Shown: piece by piece, positions 1,633 through 11,836 of the stretch
Position numbering within the stretch: position 1 is the first letter of the stretch
How the letters are laid out: each line of letters starts with the position of its first letter
NCBI GenBank assembly: GCA_017631215.1
Contig: JAGBTR010000235.1
Location: 1-12,365, forward strand
Direction: 5' to 3'
Length of the DNA stretch: 12,365 bases
Origin: Clostridia bacterium
GTDB taxonomy: Bacteria; Bacillota; Clostridia; Oscillospirales; CAG-272
Notes under the pieces: model-generated
Databases searched by the model: none
The model's input: the letters and a program-made list of their open reading frames with translations, nothing else
What the model was told of the DNA's origin: nothing
Position numbers and translations under genes: made by a program

Positions 1633-2568
1633 TTAGTTGTTGTCGCGGAAGGAATTGCGGTATTGGAGCGGCGTCATACCGATGTGCCGCTTGAAGATGC
1701 GGATGAAATAGGAGCAATCCGAAAAGCCGCTCTCGTAGCAGGCATAGGTCACCGACCGTCCCTCCTCGAGCAGCTGCTTGGCGAGCGCGATCTTGCGCGC
1801 CTGCAGATAACTGATGAGCGGCACGCCGATATGCTTGCGAAAGACGGCGGACAGATAGGGCGCGGAGACGTGGATGGCATCCGCCAGCTCACTGACCGAC
1901 GAGATACGCGCGACGTTGTTCTCAATATAAGGAAGCACGTCGCGGATGGGGGCGGGAAGAGCCGAGGTGTTGACGTGCTCGCCCGCGATCTGCACCGAGG
2001 TGCACTTCTCGCTCAGCGTACACAGCAGCTGAAGCATCTTGGCGTAGATCTTGGTGTGCACCAGCTCGCCGTTGCCCGTCTGCTCGTTGCGGCAGACCGT
2101 GGCGATGTCATAGAGCATCTGCTTGATCTGCTCACTGCTCTCGGGCGACAGCATCAGCCGCGCCGAGGAGCCTCCCGTGCGGCGGAGCAGGGGAGAGAGG
2201 GGGCTGGTGATGTGATGGGCGAAGATGTTGCCGGGGATGACCATATAAAAGCGCTTGTAATAGCAAGGCTTTTTCAGCACAAGGCTGTGCATCTCGTTGG
2301 GCTTGATGAGCATCAGGTCGCCCGGGGAGAGCGTGTAGTAGCCGTTTTTGACGATGTAGTCCGCCTCGCCCTCGACGAAGTAGTACAGCTCGTAATTCTG
2401 GTGGATATGCAGGTGATGATCCTCGGGGCGATCGAAGGTCTCTTTGTAAGCGAAGATGATGGGGTCGCGGTCGGTAAAGATGTGCAGCTTGCGTTCCAGA
2501 TACACATTGTGCGACTCGTCGCTACCGCGGTGGGTCGTGAGCTGTCGGTCAAATTCCATCGTGCCCAT
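1633..2568 (-). CDS. AraC-family transcriptional regulator 1 (cupin sensor + double HTH)
   Basis: This is a 311-aa AraC/XylS-type regulator. The N-terminal cupin-like sensor domain (about 30-120) has an HxH motif (H54, H56) followed by NYELYY, and a second cupin strand at SPGDLMLIKP. The C-terminal DNA-binding domain has helix-turn-helix 1 at about 225-246 (VSELADAIHVSAPYLS) and helix-turn-helix 2 at about 273-296, ending in the family signature SYFIRIFKRHIGMTPLQYR. The start chosen is ATG 2568: AGGAG at 2576-2580 is spaced 7 nt from it, whereas the in-frame ATG at 2583 overlaps that site. It has its own promoter at 2647-2675 and is the most divergent of the four paralogs here. Family members usually sense a sugar and activate nearby catabolic genes. 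The GH2 gene or the 5725 operon are plausible targets, but this is inference. Confidence 0.95.
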   Translation of the reverse strand: MGTMEFDRQLTTHRGSDESHNVYLERKLHIFTDRDPIIFAYKETFDRPEDHHLHIHQNYELYYFVEGEADYIVKNGYYTLSPGDLMLIKPNEMHSLVLKKPCYYKRFYMVIPGNIFAHHITSPLSPLLRRTGGSSARLMLSPESSEQIKQMLYDIATVCRNEQTGNGELVHTKIYAKMLQLLCTLSEKCTSVQIAGEHVNTSALPAPIRDVLPYIENNVARISSVSELADAIHVSAPYLSAVFRKHIGVPLISYLQARKIALAKQLLEEGRSVTYACYESGFSDCSYFIRIFKRHIGMTPLQYRNSFRDNN

Positions 2569-2595
2569 AGCGTTTCTCCTCATAGAATCATTGTA

Positions 2596-2638
2596 AAAGT
2601 TCTATTTTTATAAAATAAACAGAATAAACAGAACTTTT
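2596..2638. promoter_or_regulatory. Putative AraC operator or leader inverted repeat upstream of araC-1
   Basis: AAAGTTCT (2596-2603) is matched by its inverse AGAACTTT (2630-2637), and the AT-rich arms extend inward (ATTTTTAT at 2604-2611, ATAAA at 2624-2628). Two tandem 9-bp copies of ATAAACAGA (2615-2623 and 2624-2632) sit inside. The block lies just downstream of the minus-strand -10 box, at about the start of the leader. A clearly related block lies at 5586-5624 at the same distance from its promoter. It could be an operator or an RNA hairpin; the paired, spaced arms fit an AraC dimer site. Confidence 0.55.
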
Positions 2639-2646
2639 CCAATACC

Positions 2647-2675
2647 ATTATAGTATAATCTTGACAAAAAGTCAA
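2647..2675 (-). promoter_or_regulatory. Sigma-A promoter for araC-1
   Basis: On the minus strand TTGACT (2675-2670) and TATAAT (2652-2647) are separated by exactly 17 nt. The -35 box lies inside a palindrome, CTTGAC-AAAAA-GTCAAG (2660-2676), which could be an operator. The leader to ATG 2568 is about 70 nt. Confidence 0.85.
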
Positions 2676-2690
2676 GCGTTTTTCGCTTTT
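2661..2690 (-). terminator. Possible weak terminator after the araC-2/3/4 operon
   Basis: On the minus strand, shortly after the araC-2 stop, AAGCG-AAAAA-CGCTT (2689-2675) forms a 5-bp stem, followed after GAC by TTTTT (2671-2666 region). It overlaps the -35 box of the araC-1 promoter. The stem is short, so read-through into araC-1 is possible. Confidence 0.35.
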
Positions 2691-2695
2691 TTGTG

Positions 2696-3637
2696 TCATT
2701 CTTGCTTGGACGGCACCGTGGGCTTGACCTCTCCCCCTGCGCCCTCGGCGGCGCGAAAGGCGTTGCGGTAGCGGAGCGGTGTCGCACCGAGGTGCCGCTT
2801 GAAGATGCGGATAAAATAGGAGCAATCGGTATATCCCGTCTCGCGGCAGGCGTCTGCCACGGTGTAGCCCTCCTCAAGCATCTGCTTGGCGATGCTCATC
2901 TTGAGCGACTGGAGATAGTAGACGAGCGGCACGCCCATATGCTTGCGGAACAGGGCAGAGAGGTAGGAGGGCGAGACGTGGATGGCATCCGCGATCTCCT
3001 TGACCGAGGTGATGGTCTTGAGATGTCGGTCGATGTATATCATCACGTCCGCCAGCGGTGTCGCCAGCTCGGTCTCGACCGTCTGGCTCTCGGGCGTTTG
3101 GATGAAGGCGGCGTTCTCGCTGACCGTGCAGAGGATCTGGAGCGTGTTGGCGTAGACCTTGGTCTGGATGAGCGGCGAGGACTCGGCGGTGTCCTCGCGG
3201 CAGATCTCCAGCGTCTCATACAGCAGTGAGCGGACGCTCTCCCTGATCTCGGGCGGCAGACGGAGCCTTGCCGACGTGCCCCTCGTCAGACGGAGCAGAG
3301 GCGCGAGCGGGTCGGTCGTGTGTTGGGAGAAGGAGCTTGGGGGAAGGATGATGAAAAAGCGCTCGTACTGGTGCGGCTTGCGAAGGGTGACCTTATGCAC
3401 CTCGCCCGGGTCGATGATGACGATGTCGCCCGGCTGGAGCGTGTAGTAGGAGTTGTTGACGACGTAGTCCACGTGCTCGCTGATGCAAAAGTACAGCTCG
3501 ATATTCTGATGGACGTGAAAGGGATGCTGATCCAGACCGGCGTAGGAGTTGACGTAGGAAAAGGTGATGGGAGGTCGGTCGTGAAAGATGTTCAGCTTTT
3601 TCTTGACCTCACATTGAATATCCTCTACGAAATTCAT
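2696..3637 (-). CDS. AraC-family transcriptional regulator 2
   Basis: This is a 313-aa paralog with the same plan: a cupin-like sensor at about 15-105 (HVH at 41-43, NIELYF, LQPGDIVIIDPG) and a double helix-turn-helix at about 211-232 and 259-282, ending SYFIRIFKRHLGATPLRYR. The start is ATG 3637, preceded by GGGAGG with 6 nt spacing; the longer frame to 3691 would lie inside the upstream gene. Its ATG overlaps the stop of araC-3 by four bases (ATGA), so translational coupling is expected. It is the last gene of the three-gene operon driven from 5636-5664. The C-terminal tail after residue 294 (EGAGGEVKPTVPS) is an extra, low-complexity extension. The ligand is unknown. Confidence 0.95.
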   Translation of the reverse strand: MNFVEDIQCEVKKKLNIFHDRPPITFSYVNSYAGLDQHPFHVHQNIELYFCISEHVDYVVNNSYYTLQPGDIVIIDPGEVHKVTLRKPHQYERFFIILPPSSFSQHTTDPLAPLLRLTRGTSARLRLPPEIRESVRSLLYETLEICREDTAESSPLIQTKVYANTLQILCTVSENAAFIQTPESQTVETELATPLADVMIYIDRHLKTITSVKEIADAIHVSPSYLSALFRKHMGVPLVYYLQSLKMSIAKQMLEEGYTVADACRETGYTDCSYFIRIFKRHLGATPLRYRNAFRAAEGAGGEVKPTVPSKQE

Positions 3638-4584
3638 ATTTTGCCTCCCTTCCTCAAGGTGCTGGGATCGCCCTCCTCCTTGCCCGCGCAAAAGGCGGCA
3701 CGGTATTTGAGGGGCGTCATGCCCAGATGGCGCTTGAATATGCGGATGAAATAGGAGCAGTCGGTATAGCCCAGCTCGCGGCAGACGTCCGCCACTGTGT
3801 AGCCCTCCTCGAGCATCTGCTTTGCCAGCGACATCTTGAGCGACTGCAGGTGGTAGATGAGCGGCACGCCCAGATGCTTGCGGAACAGCGCCGACAGATA
3901 GGGAGGCGAGACGTGGACCGCCTTGGCGATCTCCGCCACGTTCTGGATCTCCTTGAGGTGCTTCTCCATATAGATATAGACGTCCGAGATCAGCTCGGAC
4001 AGCTCGGTGCGGTCGGCGCGGCGCTCGGCGGGAAGAAGATCGTCTGCGTGCTCACACAGCGTGCAGAGGATCTGCAGACAAAGGGAATACACGCGCGTCT
4101 GCACCAAGGGGGCGAGCTGGGCGGTCGAGCCCTCGTGGCAGATGCTCAACGCGTCGTACAGCATCGCGTGGATGCTCTGACCGACCTGCGCCGAGGGGCG
4201 GAGTCTCGCCGAGCGGTGCTCGGTCTGCTTGAGCAGGGCGGACAGCGGTGCGAGCAGCGGCTCGGGCAACGGATCAGTGGGCAGAGCGATGAAAAAACGC
4301 TCGTATTGGTGCGGCTCGCGGATGACGACCTTGTGGATGGCGCCCGGTCGGATGATGACGATATCACCCGGCCGGAGCGCGTAGTAGGCATCGCCCACGA
4401 CGTAGTCCACGTATCGGCTGATGCAAAAGTAGACCTCAACGTGGGGGTGGACGTGCAGCGTGTGTTGGTCGACATCGGTGTAGGAGTCGATGTGATTGAA
4501 GGAGGCGGGGGAGCGATCGTGAAAGATATTCAGTTTTTTTCGAGTCTCGTACTGGATGTCCTCGATGTATCGGTTCTCTTGCAT
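3634..4584 (-). CDS. AraC-family transcriptional regulator 3
   Basis: This is a 316-aa paralog. The cupin-like sensor spans about 18-105 (HVH at 44-46, VEVYFCIS, LRPGDIVIIRPG), and the double helix-turn-helix lies at about 215-236 and 262-285, ending SYFIRIFKRHLGMTPLKYR. Two adjacent ATGs are available. The second (4584) is preferred because AGGAGG at 4590-4595 is 5 nt from it but only 2 nt from the first (4587). It is the middle gene of the operon, 24 nt after the araC-4 stop and overlapping araC-2 by 4 nt. Its last coding bases are almost identical to those of araC-4 (79 of 81 bases), which suggests recent duplication or gene conversion. Confidence 0.95.
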   Translation of the reverse strand: MQENRYIEDIQYETRKKLNIFHDRSPASFNHIDSYTDVDQHTLHVHPHVEVYFCISRYVDYVVGDAYYALRPGDIVIIRPGAIHKVVIREPHQYERFFIALPTDPLPEPLLAPLSALLKQTEHRSARLRPSAQVGQSIHAMLYDALSICHEGSTAQLAPLVQTRVYSLCLQILCTLCEHADDLLPAERRADRTELSELISDVYIYMEKHLKEIQNVAEIAKAVHVSPPYLSALFRKHLGVPLIYHLQSLKMSLAKQMLEEGYTVADVCRELGYTDCSYFIRIFKRHLGMTPLKYRAAFCAGKEEGDPSTLRKGGKI

Positions 4585-4608
4585 CATATCCTCCTTATTT
4601 TCCGTCGG

Positions 4609-5544
4609 TCACGGTGCGGGCTTGTTCTCCTTGCCCGCGCAAAAGGCGGCACGGTATTTGAGGGGCGTCACGCCCAGATGGCGCTTGAATACGCGGATGA
4701 AATAGGATTGGTCGGTATATCCTGCGGCAAGGCAGGCGTCCGCGACCGATTGCCCCTGCTCGAGCAGCTGCTTGGCAAGGCTCATCTTGCGCGATTGCAG
4801 ATGATAGACGAGCGGCACGCCGAGATGGTTGCGGAACATCGCGGAGAGATAGGAGGGCGCGAGGTGGACGGCGTCCGCGATCTCATTGACCGACTCGATG
4901 CTCTTGAGGTTCTTGTCGATGTACAGCATCACGTCCGCCAGCGGCTCGGGCAGATGCTCGTCCTCGGCGATGCCGTCCGCGCCCAGCACACGGTCGGCAC
5001 ATTCGTTGAGCAGGCACAGCAGCTCGACCGTTTTGGCGTAGATCTTGGTCTGGTGCAGGGCGAGCAGCCCCTCGGCGATGTCCTCGCGGCAGACGGTCAG
5101 CGTATCATAGAGCAGCGCCTCGATGGCGCTCCGTTGCTCTGCCGAGGGACGCAGACGGGCAGACCCGCCGCCCAGCGCGTGCATCAGCGAGTGGAGCGGA
5201 TCGTGCGAGAGCGTGGGGAAGACCCTTGCGGGGAGCTGGATGAAGAAGCGCTCATATCGGTGCGCCTCGCGCAGCACCACGCGGTGCGCCTCGCCCGCCC
5301 GCACGATGACCACGTCGCCCGGGGCGAGACGGAGATAGCTCTTGCCCAGCACGTAGTCCACCTTGTCGCTGATGCAAAAATACAGCTCGGTGTTCTCGTG
5401 GATGTGCAGGGGATGGTTCATCTCAAGGTCGGTGAACGAGTTGATATAGGTGAAGGTGAGGGGAGGGCGACCGTGCAGGACGTCCAGCGTTTTGGTCACT
5501 TCAAAGCGGATGGTGTCCGCGCCTGCCCATTGAATATCCTTCAT
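4609..5544 (-). CDS. AraC-family transcriptional regulator 4 (first gene of the regulator operon)
   Basis: This is a 311-aa paralog. The cupin-like sensor spans about 20-110 (HIH at 47-49 followed by ENTELYFCIS, then LAPGDVVIVRAG), and the double helix-turn-helix lies at about 218-240 and 266-289, ending SYFIRVFKRHLGVTPLKYR. Helix-turn-helix 1 reads VHLAPSYLS where its paralogs have IHVS or VHVS. Start ATG 5544 has GGAGG at 5554-5558, 9 nt away. It is transcribed divergently from the radical-enzyme operon, and the shared 180-bp gap makes it the most likely regulator of that operon. That link is inference from position. Confidence 0.95.
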   Translation of the reverse strand: MKDIQWAGADTIRFEVTKTLDVLHGRPPLTFTYINSFTDLEMNHPLHIHENTELYFCISDKVDYVLGKSYLRLAPGDVVIVRAGEAHRVVLREAHRYERFFIQLPARVFPTLSHDPLHSLMHALGGGSARLRPSAEQRSAIEALLYDTLTVCREDIAEGLLALHQTKIYAKTVELLCLLNECADRVLGADGIAEDEHLPEPLADVMLYIDKNLKSIESVNEIADAVHLAPSYLSAMFRNHLGVPLVYHLQSRKMSLAKQLLEQGQSVADACLAAGYTDQSYFIRVFKRHLGVTPLKYRAAFCAGKENKPAP

Positions 5545-5724: not shown

Positions 5725-7611
5725 ATGTACGTATCTGTATTCACCGACGAGCTTCAAAGAGAAGTAACCGAGATCCTGCCCACTCTTGCGGGCTGGGGTA
5801 TGAAGTACGTGGACTTCCGTTCCCGCGTGTTCGGCAAGCCCATTGAGAATCTGACCATGGATGAGCTCAAGGCTCTGCGCGCTCAGCTGGACGAGCTGGG
5901 TCTGAAGACGGGTGTTATCCAGTCCTCGCTGTGCAAGGTCCATCTGCCCGGTCCCGACGTGGTAGCCAAGGAGATGCAAAAGCTCGAGGGCATCATCCGC
6001 GCGGCTGACGTGCTGGACTGCCGTCTGGTCCGTTCGTTCAACTTCTGGCAGCACGATCAGTACGATCCCAAGTGCGGCGAGCTGGCTATGCGTCCCGACG
6101 CACAGGCTCAGGTGATGGAGATGTTCTATCCCTTCGCTAAGCGCGCCCAGGAGGCAGGTCTGATCCTCGGTATCGAGAACTGCGGTCAGACGCCCGATGA
6201 GGTCATTACTGTTCTGGAGCAGCTCAACGTGCCCGGTTGGGGTATGGCTTGGGACGTTTCCAATATGTTCGAGATCCTGCCCGAGGCTAAGGGTGACTGT
6301 GTCGATTACTTCACCAAGTGCCTCAAGTACGCCAACATGCTGCACGTCAAGTCGCGCGGCGTTCTGGCTGAGGTCGAGGGTAAGAAGGTTCCTTGGGAGA
6401 GAGTTCTCCGCGGCGCACTCGTTACGGGTAAGGATATGCCCGTATCCATCGAGACGCACGTTCCCGCCGGTGTCGGCCTGAACGGTGAGGAGGCAACCAA
6501 GAAGTGCTATGATTATCTGAAGAGAGTTTGGCCCGCAAGCGCACCCGGCGATATGAAGTCGGCACTCTCGCCCGTTCAGATGTTCGACCGTCCCTACAAC
6601 GATAACCCCGTCAATATGGTCGTCGTCGGTCTGGGTATGGGTAAGAACCGCTGCGCACAGATCACCAACACCAACGGTATCAAGCTGTACGGTGTTTGCG
6701 ATACCAACGAGACGCGCGCCAAGGAGATCGGCGAGCAGTTCAAGGTTCCCTACAGCGCCGATATCAACACCTTCCTGAACGATCCCGCTGTTGAGGTTAT
6801 GTACGTCGTCGTTCCCACGGGCGATCACTGCCGCGTGGCAAGACAGTGCCTTGAGGCTGGCAAGCACGTTCTGCTGACCAAGCCCATGGATATCAACCAC
6901 GAGCGTTGCGACGAGCTGATCGCTTTCGCGAAGGAAAAGGGTCTGCTTCTGGGCGTTGACTTTGACCTGCACTTCCGCGGCCCGCTGAAGGAGCTTCAGC
7001 TGGCTGTCAAGAACGGCTTCTTTGGCAATCTCAAGAGCGCCAATATGATCCTGAACATCAAGCGCGATAAGAAGTACTTCGACGAGAACGGCGGCTGGAG
7101 AGGCACCTGGGCAATGGACGGCGGCGGAGCACTGAGCAATCAGGGTATCCACGAGATCGACAGACTGCTCGCTTGCTTCGGTATGCCCAAGCGCGTGAGC
7201 TGCACGACCTACAAGCAGACGCACGACATTGAGGCCGAGGACTACGGTATCGCAGAGTGGCAGTACGAGAACGGCATGATCGCCCGCATCTCGACGACCA
7301 CCTCCTTCCCCTTCAACGCATGGTACACCCGTCTTGAGGTCTACGGCGACAAGGGCGCATATATGCTGACCGCCGGCGGTCCCGAGGGTGAGCACATCTA
7401 CTGGAACGGCGACGGCAAGTGGACGGAGGAGTCCCCCAATCCCGTTCAGCGTGAGTTCAACCAGGGTGCGGACAACTTCGCATACTGCCTGCGCACGGGC
7501 GCAACGCTCGTCGTCGATCCCAAGGAGGGAAGCGATTCGCGCTACATTCTGGATAAGATGTACGAGAGTGCCAAGCAGAATGGCGCGTGGGTAGAGCTCG
7601 AGGAAAGATAA
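5725..7611 (+). CDS. Fusion protein: xylose-isomerase-like TIM barrel + Gfo/Idh/MocA oxidoreductase
   Basis: This is a 628-aa protein of two enzyme domains. Residues 1 to about 272 are a sugar phosphate isomerase/epimerase-type (AP endonuclease 2) TIM barrel. The expected metal ligands are in place: E151 (GIENCG), D177 (AWDVSN), H207 (MLHVKS) and E243 (SIETHV). After a linker (about 273-295), residues 296-628 are an NAD(P)-dependent Gfo/Idh/MocA oxidoreductase with Rossmann VVVGLGMG (299-306), the conserved Lys K386 in LTKPMD, and GGGALSNQGIHEID with H476. Asn472 stands four residues before H476, where many relatives have Asp. Start ATG 5725 has AAGGAG at 5711-5716, 8 nt upstream. Each domain is about full family length, so this is a true fusion. 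It probably oxidises a polyol or sugar OH to a ketone and isomerises or eliminates from the product. It is the first gene of the operon, and its stop overlaps the next start (TAATG). Confidence 0.93.
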   Translation: MYVSVFTDELQREVTEILPTLAGWGMKYVDFRSRVFGKPIENLTMDELKALRAQLDELGLKTGVIQSSLCKVHLPGPDVVAKEMQKLEGIIRAADVLDCRLVRSFNFWQHDQYDPKCGELAMRPDAQAQVMEMFYPFAKRAQEAGLILGIENCGQTPDEVITVLEQLNVPGWGMAWDVSNMFEILPEAKGDCVDYFTKCLKYANMLHVKSRGVLAEVEGKKVPWERVLRGALVTGKDMPVSIETHVPAGVGLNGEEATKKCYDYLKRVWPASAPGDMKSALSPVQMFDRPYNDNPVNMVVVGLGMGKNRCAQITNTNGIKLYGVCDTNETRAKEIGEQFKVPYSADINTFLNDPAVEVMYVVVPTGDHCRVARQCLEAGKHVLLTKPMDINHERCDELIAFAKEKGLLLGVDFDLHFRGPLKELQLAVKNGFFGNLKSANMILNIKRDKKYFDENGGWRGTWAMDGGGALSNQGIHEIDRLLACFGMPKRVSCTTYKQTHDIEAEDYGIAEWQYENGMIARISTTTSFPFNAWYTRLEVYGDKGAYMLTAGGPEGEHIYWNGDGKWTEESPNPVQREFNQGADNFAYCLRTGATLVVDPKEGSDSRYILDKMYESAKQNGAWVELEER

Positions 7612-8546
7612 TGATGATGGATGACGATAACAAGCTCACGGGTGCCATTAAGGGCATCGTGACCGAGATCCAGAGATTTTCTCTGCAGGATGGTCCCGGT
7701 ATCCGTACGACCGTCTTCCTCAAGGGCTGCAATATGCACTGCACGTGGTGTCACAACCCCGAGACGCTCAAGCATATGCCCGAGATCATGTTCTATCCCA
7801 TCCGTTGCATCGGCTGTGGCAAGTGTGTCGAGGTCTGCCCCGAGGGCGCTCACACCATGGGCAACGGCAAGCACACCATCGACCGCACGCTCTGCGTGGG
7901 CTGTGGTAAGTGCGCCGACGCCTGCTACGCCGAGGCGCTCCAGCTGTGCGGCAAGCGTATGTCTGCCAAGCAGATCATGGATGAGGTCGAGCAGGATAAG
8001 CCCTACTATGACAATTCGAACGGCGGTATGACCATCTCGGGCGGCGAGTGTCTTTGCCAGTCTCCCTTCGTGGAGCAGCTGCTCGACGCGGCACACGAGA
8101 AGGGCATCCACGCCGCCATCGAGACCAATCTCAGCTTTGATTTTGAGAGAATCGAGGACGTGCTTCGCAAGTGCGATCTCGTGATGTTCGACATCAAGCT
8201 GATGGACGACGAGGCGCACAAGACGTACACGGGCGTGAGCAATGCCAAGGTGCTTGCCAACGCCAAGAAGCTCGACGAGCTGGGTGTCCCCTTCATCGTG
8301 CGTACCCCCCTCATCCCCGGTGTGACGGATACCGACGAGAACGTGTCCGCCATCGTGGATTACATTAAGGATATGAAGCATCTCGTTCGCTACGAGCTGC
8401 TCAACTTCAACACGCTCGGCGGCGCGAAGTATGAATCGCTGTCTGCCGACAACGCCCACGCGGATGCCCGTCCGCTTGCCAAGGCACGCCTTGACGAGCT
8501 GGGCGCCATCATCGATCGCGCGGGCATCGCAGGAAAGGTGGTATAA
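7611..8546 (+). CDS. Glycyl radical enzyme activase (radical SAM, PFL-activating family)
   Basis: This 311-aa radical SAM enzyme would use S-adenosylmethionine and a [4Fe-4S] cluster to abstract a hydrogen from the glycine of its partner GRE. The radical SAM motif is C40-x3-C44-x2-C47 (GCNMHCTWCHNPE). An inserted ferredoxin-like domain follows with two cysteine sets: C66, C69, C72, C76 and C95, C98, C101, C105. This is the layout of activases for non-PFL GREs, such as the dehydratase and decarboxylase types. The SAM-binding GGE lies in ISGGECL (142-148). The start overlaps the preceding stop as TAATG at 7609-7613, with GAGG at 7600-7603; three ATGs in a row (7611, 7614, 7617) leave a small uncertainty. 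The GRE starts 2 nt after its stop, so this is certainly its cognate activase. Like all such enzymes it needs anoxic conditions. Confidence 0.96.
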   Translation: MMMDDDNKLTGAIKGIVTEIQRFSLQDGPGIRTTVFLKGCNMHCTWCHNPETLKHMPEIMFYPIRCIGCGKCVEVCPEGAHTMGNGKHTIDRTLCVGCGKCADACYAEALQLCGKRMSAKQIMDEVEQDKPYYDNSNGGMTISGGECLCQSPFVEQLLDAAHEKGIHAAIETNLSFDFERIEDVLRKCDLVMFDIKLMDDEAHKTYTGVSNAKVLANAKKLDELGVPFIVRTPLIPGVTDTDENVSAIVDYIKDMKHLVRYELLNFNTLGGAKYESLSADNAHADARPLAKARLDELGAIIDRAGIAGKVV

Positions 8547-8548
8547 GA

Positions 8549-10759
8549 ATGAGTGCCATCAAATTTGTCAACTGCTATTCCCCCGAGGAGGAGCTGTCCT
8601 ACGATAAGCGTATCGCTCTGCTCCGTCAGCGCAAGGTCGACCAGACGGCTGAAAAGGCAAAGCTGGGCGGCGCGGACGAGGACGATTACGGTCTGATCGT
8701 TCAGGACGAGTTCAAGTTCCAGCTGCAGCCCAGCCACAAGAACGGCTCCATCTACGGCTACGACGCGTGGTCGCAAAACTATTGCCGACTGCTCTCGGAG
8801 CATCCGCTCTATCTCGACGCGCTCGATGCGTTCGTCGGTAAGGGATTTCTGTTCCTTGAGAGACTGCGTCCGCCCAAGAAGAAGTGGAACCCCGACTACG
8901 CTTACCCCGATCTGCAGCAGATCTTTGATCGTTACAACATCATTTCGGGTATCGACAACTGTCACCACTTCACGCCCGACATTCAGATCGGTTTCGATCT
9001 TGGCTGGGGCGGCATTCTTGCCAAGCTTGAGGAGCAGGAGAAGCTGCACGACGAATCTCACGCCGATTTCTATCGCGCCGAGATCGCCGTTGTCAAGGCC
9101 ATCATCGCCTTCCTCGACCGTATGACCGACGAGATCGAGGCGCAGGCGGAGCGCGAGACGCATCCCGTGCTCAAGCAGAACCTGATCGATATGGCAGAGT
9201 GCAACCGCGCCATCGTTTCGGATAAGCCCAAGACGTTCCGTCAGGCGGTGCAGTGGATGTGCTGGTTCTCCATGCTGTCCCGTACCTACAACCGCGGAAG
9301 CGCGGGCGGTCAGCTTGACGAGATGCTGCGCCCCTACTACGAGCGCGACGTCGAGGCGGGCATTCTGACCGACGACGAGGCTGTGTTCTATCTGGCTTGC
9401 CTGTTCCTGCAGGACAGCCGTTACTTCCAGCTCGGCGGTCCCGACGAGAACGGCGAGGATATGATCTCGCACATCTCTTATCTGTGCCTTGAGGCGGCAG
9501 ATAAGATCAACATCGCTTGCAACCTGACCGTGCGCGTGCACGACAAAATGAACGAGGACTTCTTCCGCAAGTCGGTGGCCTACCTGTTCAAGAACAAGCA
9601 GGGTTGGCCGCGCTACTCGTCCGACAACGCACTGGTCGAGGGCTTTATGAAGTGCGGCTATTCCAAGGAGCTCGCCCGTCGCCGCGTGGCGGCAGGCTGC
9701 CATTGGATGTGTATTCCCGGTATGGAGTACACGATGAACGATACCGTCAAGATCAATCTGCTCAAGGTGTTTGACGTCGCTTACCGCGATATGATGGCAC
9801 ACGCCGACGAGCCGAGCATCGACGCGCTGTGGGAGTGCTACAAAAAGCACCTCAAGGTCGCCGTTGACGCGACGGGCGCGGGCATTATGCATCACCTCAA
9901 GTACCAGTCCAAGAGCCAGCCTGAGCTCATTCTCAACCTGTTCCAGCACGGTCTGATCGAGAAGGGTCTCAACATCACCGACGGTGGTGCAAACTTCTAC
10001 AATATGTGCGTGGACGGCAGTGGTCTTGCTGTGGTCGCGGACAGCTTTGCTGCCTGCGAGAGCCGCATCGACCGCGAGGGTAAGCTGACCTACGCGCAGC
10101 TGACCGAGCTGCTCGACCGCAACTTTGAGGGCGGCGAGTACGTCCGTCAGATGCTTCAGCACAGCCCCCGTTACGGCGGCGGCTGCACGCTGGGCGACGC
10201 TTGGGCACAAAAGGTCAACGAGCTGTACACCTCGCTCGTCCGCGATCTGTGCAATCAGTACAAGGGCGTCAACTTCATCCCCGGCTTCTTCTCTTGGTCG
10301 AACACCATCGGTCTTGGTAAGACGGTCGGTGCTACGCCCAACGGTCGTAAGGCGTTCGAGCCCATCAACCACGGTGCCAACCCCAACGGCGGCTTCCGCC
10401 GCGACGGTGCGGTCACCTCGATGTGCAACTCGATCGGCGCGATCCAGCCTGGTTACGGCAACTGTGCACCCGTTCAGCTTGAGCTCGACCCCGGCATCGT
10501 CGGTGACGAGGAGGGTGTCGATAAGATGGCCGCTATGATTAAGACGATCATGTCGACGGGCAACACGCTGCTCAACATCAACATCATCGACGGCAAGAAG
10601 ATCCTCGAGGCTCATAAGGATCCTATGAAGTATCCCGACCTTGTCGTTCGCGTCACGGGCTTCACCGCCTTCTTCGCGATGCTCTCGCCCACCTTCCGCC
10701 AGCTCGTCGTCGACCGCGTCATGTCGGTCAACGGCTCGCGACTGGAAGAGGATCAGTGA
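8549..10759 (+). CDS. Glycyl radical enzyme of unassigned type (atypical GCHW active-site loop)
   Basis: This 736-aa protein is a PFL-like glycyl radical enzyme, somewhat shorter than the roughly 780-850 aa of dehydratase-type members. The glycyl radical site is G704 in RVTGFTAFFAMLSP (codon 10658-10660), close to the family form RVxGYSAxF. The thiyl cysteine is C384 in RVAAGCHWMCIPG (codon 9698-9700). It follows the expected helix PRYSSDNALVEGFMKCG, which is equivalent to PSFxNDE of relatives. Other family landmarks are NCHHFTPD (137-144) and ATPNGRKAFEPINHG (595-609). Choline, glycerol, hydroxyproline and related GREs carry Cys-Val-Glu at the active site; here it is Cys-His-Trp, so the Glu general base is missing and different chemistry is implied. 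A second Cys (C388) is nearby. It is co-operonic with the fusion enzyme and the activase, which suggests a sugar- or cyclitol-derived substrate. It probably acts in the cytoplasm; there is no shell-targeting N-terminal extension and no shell gene in view. Confidence 0.95.
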   Translation: MSAIKFVNCYSPEEELSYDKRIALLRQRKVDQTAEKAKLGGADEDDYGLIVQDEFKFQLQPSHKNGSIYGYDAWSQNYCRLLSEHPLYLDALDAFVGKGFLFLERLRPPKKKWNPDYAYPDLQQIFDRYNIISGIDNCHHFTPDIQIGFDLGWGGILAKLEEQEKLHDESHADFYRAEIAVVKAIIAFLDRMTDEIEAQAERETHPVLKQNLIDMAECNRAIVSDKPKTFRQAVQWMCWFSMLSRTYNRGSAGGQLDEMLRPYYERDVEAGILTDDEAVFYLACLFLQDSRYFQLGGPDENGEDMISHISYLCLEAADKINIACNLTVRVHDKMNEDFFRKSVAYLFKNKQGWPRYSSDNALVEGFMKCGYSKELARRRVAAGCHWMCIPGMEYTMNDTVKINLLKVFDVAYRDMMAHADEPSIDALWECYKKHLKVAVDATGAGIMHHLKYQSKSQPELILNLFQHGLIEKGLNITDGGANFYNMCVDGSGLAVVADSFAACESRIDREGKLTYAQLTELLDRNFEGGEYVRQMLQHSPRYGGGCTLGDAWAQKVNELYTSLVRDLCNQYKGVNFIPGFFSWSNTIGLGKTVGATPNGRKAFEPINHGANPNGGFRRDGAVTSMCNSIGAIQPGYGNCAPVQLELDPGIVGDEEGVDKMAAMIKTIMSTGNTLLNINIIDGKKILEAHKDPMKYPDLVVRVTGFTAFFAMLSPTFRQLVVDRVMSVNGSRLEEDQ

Positions 10760-10774
10760 GGAGAAGAGGATGAC

Positions 10775-10959
10775 GTGGGGCCAGCCCCACACCCCGCTTA
10801 AAGCTTTCTTGGAAGAAAGCTTTAAGAATTCAAAGAACTTAAATAAAAAATATAGCGATCGCTCCGAGTATTCTCGAACTGTTTTGTAAGTTTTTGAGGA
10901 TTCCCAAGGAACTTTTTTCAAAAAGTTCCTTGGGCGGGGCTCGGGGCAGCGCCCCGAAG
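10775..10959. repeat. Composite REP/BIME- or MITE-like palindromic element
   Basis: Two similar units stand in inverted orientation around an AT-rich centre. The left unit is a GC hairpin (GTGGGGC 10775-10781 / GCCCCAC 10784-10790), the link ACCCCGC, then a 14-bp hairpin with 2-nt loop (10797-10810 / 10813-10826). The right unit, in reverse, is a GC hairpin (TCGGGGC 10941-10947 / GCCCCGA 10951-10957), the link GCGGGGC, then a 15-bp hairpin with 2-nt loop (10903-10917 / 10920-10934). The centre is 10827-10902. No transposase and no long U-tract follow either hairpin. It fills almost the whole GRE-cupin gap and is probably dispersed in this genome. Confidence 0.75.
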
Positions 10960-10971
10960 AAAGGAAATATC

Positions 10972-11754
10972 ATGAAGCACGATCTTCACATGGAAGTCAT
11001 TGATATGACTCAAAAGGAAAACCGCGTCCTTCCCCTGTGCCACGGCGTCATTCCCGGCTCGCGTCCTTACCACCACACCATCGTGGCAGGCTCTGAGACC
11101 GTCTTTGCTGCCAACACGGGCTACTACCACATTCTCATCCTCATCGGCGGCGAGGCTGATTTCGTCTGCAACGGCGAGACCGTCCGCTTCGACGAGAGAG
11201 TGACCTTCGTTCCCGGCGCTGATCAGGAGCTGACCGTTAAGGCACTGACCGACACGCAGATCCTTGAGATCCAGTGGGATATCTTCCCCGAGGACGAGGG
11301 TATGCTCAAGGAGTACGGTACGACCTTCCCGCACTACGTTCTGTACCGCAACTCCATCCAGTACATCGACCGCAACAAGAGTGAGAAGACCATCAGCCGT
11401 ATGATGATCCCCCACAAGGTCATCCCGCGCTTCTCGCTGGGCTCGGTTGAGTCGTTCGGCTATGACCTGGTCAAGCCCCACAGCCATCCTATGCTCGACC
11501 AGTTCTTCTTCAGCTTCCCCGAGAACGACATGGAGGTCATCATCGACGACGAGAAGATCCCCATGAAGGGCGATACCATTCTGTACATTCCTCTGGGCTC
11601 CAACCACGGCGTTGAGGTTACGGGCGACCGCCACATGCACTACATGTGGATCGACTTCCTGCCGGACAACGAGCTGGGTCTGAAGAGACTTGAGAGCAGC
11701 CATATGCCCACGGGTAAGTGGAATTCGTTCAGCGCAGACGGTAAAAAGAGCTGA
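10972..11754 (+). CDS. Two-domain cupin protein
   Basis: This is a 260-aa cytoplasmic protein with two cupin barrels. The start is ATG 10972 with AAAGGA upstream; the longer open frame from 10894 runs through the repeat element and is not coding. The first barrel (about 20-105) has the fold pattern (YYHILILIGGEADFVCNG) but no HxH, so it probably binds no metal. The second (about 155-228) carries HSH at 170-172, and the closing motif GDTILYIPLGSNHG (200-213) with H212. The acidic ligand normally 4-5 residues after HxH appears as D176/Q177 instead of Glu. There is no helix-turn-helix, so it is not an AraC regulator, although the first barrel resembles AraC sensor domains. It may be a sugar isomerase or a sugar-sensing accessory protein of the operon; the function is not recognised. 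Confidence 0.85.
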   Translation: MKHDLHMEVIDMTQKENRVLPLCHGVIPGSRPYHHTIVAGSETVFAANTGYYHILILIGGEADFVCNGETVRFDERVTFVPGADQELTVKALTDTQILEIQWDIFPEDEGMLKEYGTTFPHYVLYRNSIQYIDRNKSEKTISRMMIPHKVIPRFSLGSVESFGYDLVKPHSHPMLDQFFFSFPENDMEVIIDDEKIPMKGDTILYIPLGSNHGVEVTGDRHMHYMWIDFLPDNELGLKRLESSHMPTGKWNSFSADGKKS

Positions 11755-11761
11755 TTGCCCC

Positions 11762-11790
11762 TTGACATAAAAGAAAAACCGTGATATACT
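11762..11790 (+). promoter_or_regulatory. Sigma-A promoter for the FAD oxidoreductase gene
   Basis: TTGACA (11762-11767) and TATACT (11785-11790) are 17 nt apart, giving a near-consensus promoter 8 nt after the cupin stop. Transcription should start at about 11797, so the oxidoreductase can be expressed independently of the upstream operon. Confidence 0.85.
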
Positions 11791-11800
11791 AAACCCAACG

Positions 11801-11836
11801 AAGGGCGAGGCGTCATCGTCTCGCCCTTGTCTTTTT
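11801..11836 (+). terminator. Terminator-like leader hairpin (possible attenuator)
   Basis: AAGGGCGAGGCG (11801-11812) pairs with CGTCTCGCCCTT (11817-11828), a 12-bp stem with one G-U pair and the tetraloop TCAT, followed by GTC and TTTTT (11832-11836). It begins a few bases after the predicted start of the 11762 promoter, and its T-run directly abuts the GGAGGG ribosome site. It could terminate the upstream operon, attenuate the downstream gene, or both. Confidence 0.6.

Follow-up and report, generated by a model that had tools for sequence, protein, structure and literature searches.

Glycyl radical enzymes (GREs) share the superfamily fingerprint RVxG[FWY] with its glycine (PMC11528403), and no function has been assigned to many of the abundant ones (PMC11574389). 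In CutC, Cys489 abstracts a hydrogen and Glu491 deprotonates the hydroxyl of the radical (PMC12451663), while PflD and YbiW have been placed in a pathway for 1,5-anhydromannitol/anhydroglucitol 6-phosphate (PMC12441222). Here we describe a GRE of 736 aa at positions 8549-10759 (+ strand) of a 12,365-nt window, i.e., the entire contig C251 of a 1.89-Mb, 73%-complete genome in 343 contigs (G000). It shares with CutC and HypD the GRE Pfam families, the radical glycine and cysteine, and the type of activase; however, it scores 194 and 213 bits against their models (cut-offs, 1050 and 1100) and lies on the opposite side of the tree. With PflD and YbiW it has in common an activase partner, an apparent place in sugar metabolism and a similar Cys-loop context, but it is 26% and 25% identical to them, has C-x-W for C-x-E and ~20 fewer residues, and none of the PTS or aldolase (fsaA-like) neighbours of pflD and ybiW occurs in the window, a short contig and the one locus searched for PTS genes. 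Inositol catabolism (IolG, IolE/IolO, IolB) offers a further comparison. Its enzymes are of the Gfo/Idh, AP_endonuc_2 TIM-barrel and bicupin-fold kinds, all of which are present here, but the fused TIM-Gfo/Idh protein of the window scores 83 bits against iolG (cut-off, 355) and the operon has a GRE where the inositol route has a ring-opening hydrolase. Likewise, a stand-alone TIM protein at locus L008, of a kind absent from the window, reaches 72 bits against IolO (cut-off, 300); its best model is D-psicose 3-epimerase (77 bits; cut-off, 300), and its closest relatives are TM_0416, which we take to be IolO, and 3-keto-D-glucoside 4-epimerase (~50 bits each). The 3-keto-glycoside beta-eliminases and BT_2158/2159-type dehydrogenases resemble our system in oxidising a sugar and then acting beside the ketone with a metal TIM barrel (PMC10628242) and in a PF06439 gene at L023, yet the fusion scores 24 and 21 bits against their models (cut-offs, 750 and 650), and the window operon adds a radical step. 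In AtOGE, as described in PMC10628242, the catalytic His lies two residues after the first metal ligand, whereas the fusion, compared by motif rather than by direct alignment, has a Cys there (E151-N-C153).

The GRE gene closes a tight operon of three genes. The first (5725-7611, +, assigned by Pfam) encodes the fusion of a TIM barrel to a Gfo/Idh/MocA dehydrogenase and starts at an ATG with a good Shine-Dalgarno sequence; its TAA stop (7609-7611) shares 1 nt with the ATG (7611) of a radical SAM GRE activase with extra ferredoxin-type clusters (7611-8546, +; TIGR02494, 341.7 bits; cut-off, 174). ATG codons at 7614 and 7617 are possible alternative starts of the activase, and the GRE starts 2 nt after its stop. 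The coupling of the three genes by a 1-nt overlap and a 2-nt gap, as originally predicted, is real, and the arrangement recurs, with an activase-to-GRE gap of -11 to +30 nt in 26 of 30 loci (starts picked mechanically). A gap of 212 nt (10760-10971) containing two palindromes (10798-10934) separates the GRE from a bicupin gene (10972-11754, +), which is followed by an FAD-dependent oxidoreductase gene truncated by the contig end (11846-12365, +; PF12831, 94.4 bits). The 21-base palindrome arm tested has a single copy in the genome (≤1 mismatch allowed), ruling it out as a genomic repeat. Consensus matches upstream of the FAD gene comprise a promoter-like site (11762-11790, 11/12) and a terminator-like hairpin (11801-11828) and, together with the palindromic gap, suggest that, in the window, the cupin and FAD genes might have transcripts of their own. 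On the other side, an AraC-type regulator gene (4609-5544, -) is divergent from the operon, has a sigma-70-like promoter nearby (5664-5636, - strand; 12/12 by consensus match) and is accompanied by three paralogues (3634-4587, 2696-3691 and 1633-2583, all -). HTH_18 and cupin domains were present in the two of the four regulators scanned with Pfam, and all four match a regulator HMM built from fusion-bearing loci. Since single related regulators lie beside fusions elsewhere, this tandem array (1633-5544), flanked by a GH2 gene on one side and by the operon on the other, has the look of an expansion at this locus.

With PF02901 and PF01228 scores of 320.9 and 52.4 bits, both over cut-off, the protein clearly belongs to the GRE superfamily. 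Its fingerprint, RVTGF, holds an invariant radical glycine, Gly704, ruling out an aminoacyl radical enzyme of the Ala/Ser/Thr kind, and the catalytic Cys384, mid-protein, is likewise invariant; indeed, G383-C384-H385-W386-M387-C388 is unchanged across 24 aligned rows, window included. The best NCBIfam match was PFL2-3 (265 bits; cut-off, 678), HpsG gave 220 bits (cut-off, 1000) and two decarboxylase models gave ~113 bits (cut-offs, 1100 and 1150). Among solved GREs, the best relatives were HypD (183 bits) and PflD (177.8 bits), with PFL at 60 bits. Considering that the matched NCBIfam equivalogs all fall far below cut-off, orthology to a GRE of a known pathway is unsupported, and the GRE is likewise no orthologue of those compared as solved relatives or in the trees; the original expectation that the operon matches no named pathway is thus not refuted by GRE orthology. 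Most functionally distinct GREs are set apart at a level above 40-50% identity (PMC11528403), and since our GRE is far from the characterised ones, a different reaction is expected. Among the open-licence papers listed by ranked and capped searches, none was seen to describe the GRE or a matching pathway, though absence there is a weak sign.

A quick tree of 63 rows gave the clade split an SH-aLRT support of 100 and a branch of 4.29 changes per site, and a careful tree of 36 rows, made after removal of a second GRE of the same genome (own_C65), the second GREs of two other loci and 24 of 47 clade rows, gave bootstrap/SH-aLRT values of 100/100 and 3.47 changes per site. L030 was dropped as too short, four of five CutC and four of six HypD loci were included, and the tree tool flagged long branches, one of them where own_C65 meets the clade. 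Decarboxylase, X-succinate synthase and sulfonate GREs were compared outside the trees, by NCBIfam scores and PDB matches. By these sequence comparisons, the GRE lies in a deep, uncharacterised branch of its own.

The branch is marked by a rewritten catalytic motif. At the position of the eliminase C-x-E, the alignment has C-[H/N/S]-W in 48 of 48 branch rows (30 from the window's own subfamily and 18 from sister branches, with duplicate-sequence pairs L014/L090 and L016/L091), a count that describes the branch and is not an independent sample, since rows were chosen by score. The sister rows represent 18 of 24 matches, fetched as 7.5-20 kb regions, and the matches in G499 and G542 lie outside the motif count. 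Eight further members also have the motif, namely the partial GREs of L032, L035, L037 and L038 and, as C-N-W, those of L061, L064, L066 and L067; two other partial GREs outside the 48 rows, L039 (the piece ends before the loop) and L040 (split), yielded no such Cys-loop. The clade rows also lack ~20 residues before L-G-G that PflD, YbiW and both PFLs possess. C-x-E occurred in 11 of 11 eliminase-type references (PflD, YbiW, four CutC and four HypD that pass their cut-offs, and one GRE retrieved with the CutC search that does not reach its cut-off) and in all 12 loci retrieved by the CutC and HypD searches. In view of the role of Glu491 in CutC, the exchange of Glu for Trp would be mechanistically important. 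Radical cleavage, the activity first proposed for this GRE, is one that we infer, and the loss of the C-x-E base speaks against a plain carry-over of eliminase chemistry.

Homologues of the GRE are numerous, at least 2458 at E ≤ 1e-30, not all of which need carry the C-x-W motif. Among the matches listed, the named close homologues are from Oscillospiraceae, Lachnospiraceae and Clostridia MAGs, and several are annotated 'formate acetyltransferase', a label that masks the divergence of the C-x-W GREs. At E ≤ 1e-70, GRE matches were found in 3 of 398 genomes searched phylum-wide and in 23 of 196 family genomes, with G000 counted in both; own-subfamily GREs (>1500 bits) occur in 4 of the 196, and the remaining family matches are sister branches. 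A GRE of the C-x-W kind was found in none of the five same-genus draft genomes searched, two of which have the fusion alone, beside an AraC-type regulator (L095, 3117-5000; L096, 6573-8453), and the distribution of the GRE is thus patchy.

Neighbouring genes were compared at 34 loci (33 from one genome-contig scan plus the window) in MAGs titled Clostridia, Spirochaetales, Kiritimatiellae and Verrucomicrobia, using HMMs made from clustered neighbour genes and counting among loci with enough flank. The GRE neighbourhoods are strongly conserved and not random, so that the survey called for by the original prediction does not refute it. An activase lies near the GRE in 29 of 29 loci (the L038 copy is a fragment), a cupin in 27 of 29, a mannose-6-phosphate-isomerase-like (PMI-like) gene in 21 of 24 (missing in L015, L022 and L038), a Gfo/Idh-type gene, fusion counted, in 23 of 28, and a TIM or fusion gene in 19 of 28. 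The two loci missing the cupin are L026, which has 165 nt upstream where its relatives have the cupin, and L038, where the GRE is split and has no partner but the activase fragment. GRE adjoins cupin in 27 loci and cupin adjoins the PMI-like gene in 21, commonly at -4 nt. FAD genes were found in 8 of 28 loci, and the FAD family of the window occurs in L011, L013 (in two pieces), L016, L018, L020, L025, L032 and L040. The cupin and FAD genes, which were originally proposed as a possible extension of the module, do recur but, in the window, are possibly separate transcripts. The gene set and operon foreseen originally are real, but the conserved core is activase-GRE-cupin-PMI-like isomerase and not the fusion, which an HMM search found in 9 of 34 loci and which, in the two same-genus genomes, stands without a GRE. 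The core neighbours stay the same across MAGs whose titles span four phyla. L023 (Kiritimatiellae-titled) and L031 (Verrucomicrobia-titled) have the order cupin-activase-GRE-PMI and branch with L026, which argues against mere contamination. The GRE of L028 (Kiritimatiellae-titled) is nearly identical to that of L027 (Clostridiaceae-titled), and one of the two, possibly L028, is probably misbinned.

The PMI-like gene is absent from the window contig and was not found in the 73%-complete genome, in a search run without a positive control; at other loci, its product matches mannose-6-phosphate isomerases below the manA cut-off. The predicted model of the cupin (pLDDT 90) has the bicupin fold of DUF861 proteins, quercetinase, IolB-like proteins and KduI, a shared fold that by itself shows no function; a sequence test for homology to KduI was negative, the match being in fold only. 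The bicupin is likely a metal-dependent isomerase or lyase. The FAD enzyme of L018 had no solved relative at E ≤ 1e-5. Pfam scans of 60 chosen further neighbours revealed the 3-keto-disaccharide hydrolase (PF06439) of L023, second gene after the PMI-like one, together with an SSF symporter, rhamnosidases and a fucosidase at L010 and L012, a PfkB kinase close to the sister GRE of L088 but on the other strand, and unrelated housekeeping genes.

In the fusion, a PF01261 xylose-isomerase-like TIM barrel (residues ~1-275) precedes the Gfo/Idh/MocA dehydrogenase (residues ~290-628, Pfam). The metal quartet assigned by motif (E151, D177, H207 and E243) and K386, N472 and H476 of the Gfo half are invariant in 10 of 10 aligned fusions. 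The solved chains nearest to the Gfo domain are 3q2i/3q2k (~85 bits; GWRGTW...NQ..H in common), which we take to be WlbA-type UDP-GlcNAcA 3-dehydrogenases, whereas the TIM half had no clear solved relative (a single match, E 0.048). Since it is present in 9 of 34 loci, the fusion appears to be one of several oxidation modules.

Transporters vary among the loci. Mem_trans carriers occur at L008 and, by HMM label, at L033 and L034, and TRAP genes are divergent from the GRE in four of eight Spirochaetota loci (L018, L019, L037 and L039); the L037 piece contains only part of the TRAP set, L020, L025 and L032 have <2.3 kb upstream, and L015 shows no TRAP genes. At L019, Gfo/Idh and TIM genes are on the TRAP-gene strand. 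The L018 TRAP binding protein has 4n8y, 4mhf/4mij and 4n15 as best solved chains (123-137 bits; 113-114 bits against sialate and isethionate binders); for that of L019, 4n8y and 4n15 come first, while 4mhf is 18th (95.7 bits), below sialate binders. According to PMC7660916, 4MHF binds D-glucuronate and D-galacturonate and 4N15 served as template for a glucuronate binder, two Arg and one Asn of which seem, when mapped by eye, to be matched in L019. The TRAP binding proteins thus give a weak hint of a sugar acid. Several sister GREs lie near sugar genes (GH2, GH26, UxaC, ABC or MFS transporters), and L072 has a ribose-type ABC transporter and a ROK regulator. At L085, a gene for UxaC (glucuronate isomerase, 660 bits; 11230-12693) adjoins the sister GRE on the opposite strand, and a GH2 gene lies upstream of the activase. 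Of 14 genomes searched, 11 encode a UxaC that exceeds cut-off, and two of these are same-genus genomes that lack the GRE; the match was weak in G324, and none was found in G000 or G503, both incomplete. UxaC co-occurrence is therefore uninformative as a test of whether the classical uronate route is replaced. Genes labelled Gfo/Idh lie upstream in nine of ten sister loci L075-L084 (exception, L078), and none was found near the GRE in L085-L089 (0/5), L072 or L073, so the ketone partner is not general.

The reading that we tentatively favour is that the operon serves anaerobic catabolism of keto-sugars, with the GRE performing a radical deoxygenation in which a carbonyl replaces the Glu base; the starting compound is probably a uronate- or aldonate-type sugar acid, or else a related polyol. 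The gene set, conservation, motifs and branch are read from sequence, from which we infer every reaction, their order and the substrate. The Gfo/Idh domain would oxidise a ring hydroxyl with NAD+, and the fused metal TIM barrel would then epimerise or eliminate adjacent to the new ketone. The activase would install the glycyl radical at Gly704, passing to a thiyl radical on Cys384, which would abstract hydrogen from the OH-bearing carbon beside the ketone; the C-O bond beta to the radical would break to yield a deoxy-dicarbonyl. By our own argument, the neighbouring carbonyl would acidify the radical, so that no Glu base is needed and Trp386 is tolerated. The bicupin and, where present, the PMI-like protein would isomerise the product, and the FAD enzyme and other Gfo/Idh enzymes would balance redox. 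The conserved neighbours, relatives among sugar-ketone enzymes, TRAP acid transport and the C-[HNS]-W motif are consistent with this reading; against it stand the two genomes with the fusion but without the GRE, the lack of a general ketone partner, the variation of transporters by locus (TRAP, Mem_trans, SSF), the weakness of the TRAP hint and the missing solved relative for the TIM half of the fusion. No kinase or aldolase recurs among the scanned genes to account for the end of the pathway. It is possible, though we hold this wider view more loosely, that the C-x-W branch is a further carbohydrate-linked GRE class with base-free ketone radical chemistry, be it deoxygenation, ring opening or C-C cleavage, and that interchangeable oxidation modules feed its Gfo/Idh-linked members. 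If so, many anaerobes would hold an oxidise-then-radical sugar route that bypasses phosphorylation. The gene set offers a concrete, testable starting point for finding new sugar chemistry among the anaerobes of gut and digester communities.

The GRE could instead be a C-C lyase, its thiyl adding to the ketone as in pyruvate formate-lyase so that the adjacent C-C bond breaks and the ring or chain opens, with Cys388 of the own subfamily as a possible relay. We regard this as unlikely, though not negligibly so. It would accommodate the missing C-x-E base, the ketone-forming partners and the single aldolase beside the core among the genes scanned (class II, in L017), and both Cys384 and Cys388 are invariant in the aligned own-subfamily rows (Cys at 388 in 30/30). 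However, only 11 of 18 sister rows have Cys at 388, the other seven having S, G or A; the adjacent Cys-Cys pair of PFL is absent (G-C-H-W versus C-C-V-S in two PFLs), as is the Arg aligned opposite His140; and similarity to eliminase-type GREs far outruns that to PFL (183 versus 60 bits). Another reading is a divergent but ordinary dehydratase, of PflD/YbiW anhydrosugar or diol type, drawing its base from elsewhere in the pocket. In its favour, only one solved relative scores better than PflD, the rest of the Cys-loop is similar (GCVELSIPG versus GCHWMCIPG) and a PflD His is aligned to His140. We nevertheless find this doubtful, given the low identity to PflD and YbiW, the length of the clade branch in both trees, the loss of C-x-E and of the residues before L-G-G, and the absence of a PTS or fsaA-like neighbour from the short window, unlike pflD and ybiW. 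It seems more improbable still that the fusion oxidises sugars as an independent system housed in the same operon, with the GRE, cupin and PMI-like protein using another substrate. Its rarity, its occurrence without the GRE and a conserved core that excludes it would fit, but the fusion is directly joined 5' to the activase on the same strand in five loci, window included, and Gfo/Idh-type genes are near the GRE at most loci. All other explanations combined are very unlikely.

Additional GREs were seen near clade GREs and in the window's own genome. Contig C65 of G000 (L043) has another odd GRE (own_C65), a 794-aa open frame with the fingerprint RIWGWSAYFVE, whose branch measures 4.7 changes per site. 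The clade GREs of L013 and L075 each have a second, very distant GRE nearby, at 1147-4241 in L013 (with its own activase) and at 14290-16446 in L075. A regular expression found no Cys-loop in own_C65 or the second GRE of L013, while that of L075 has the loop GCNQIDIMG. At L013 and L075, a single pathway may employ two distinct radical enzymes.
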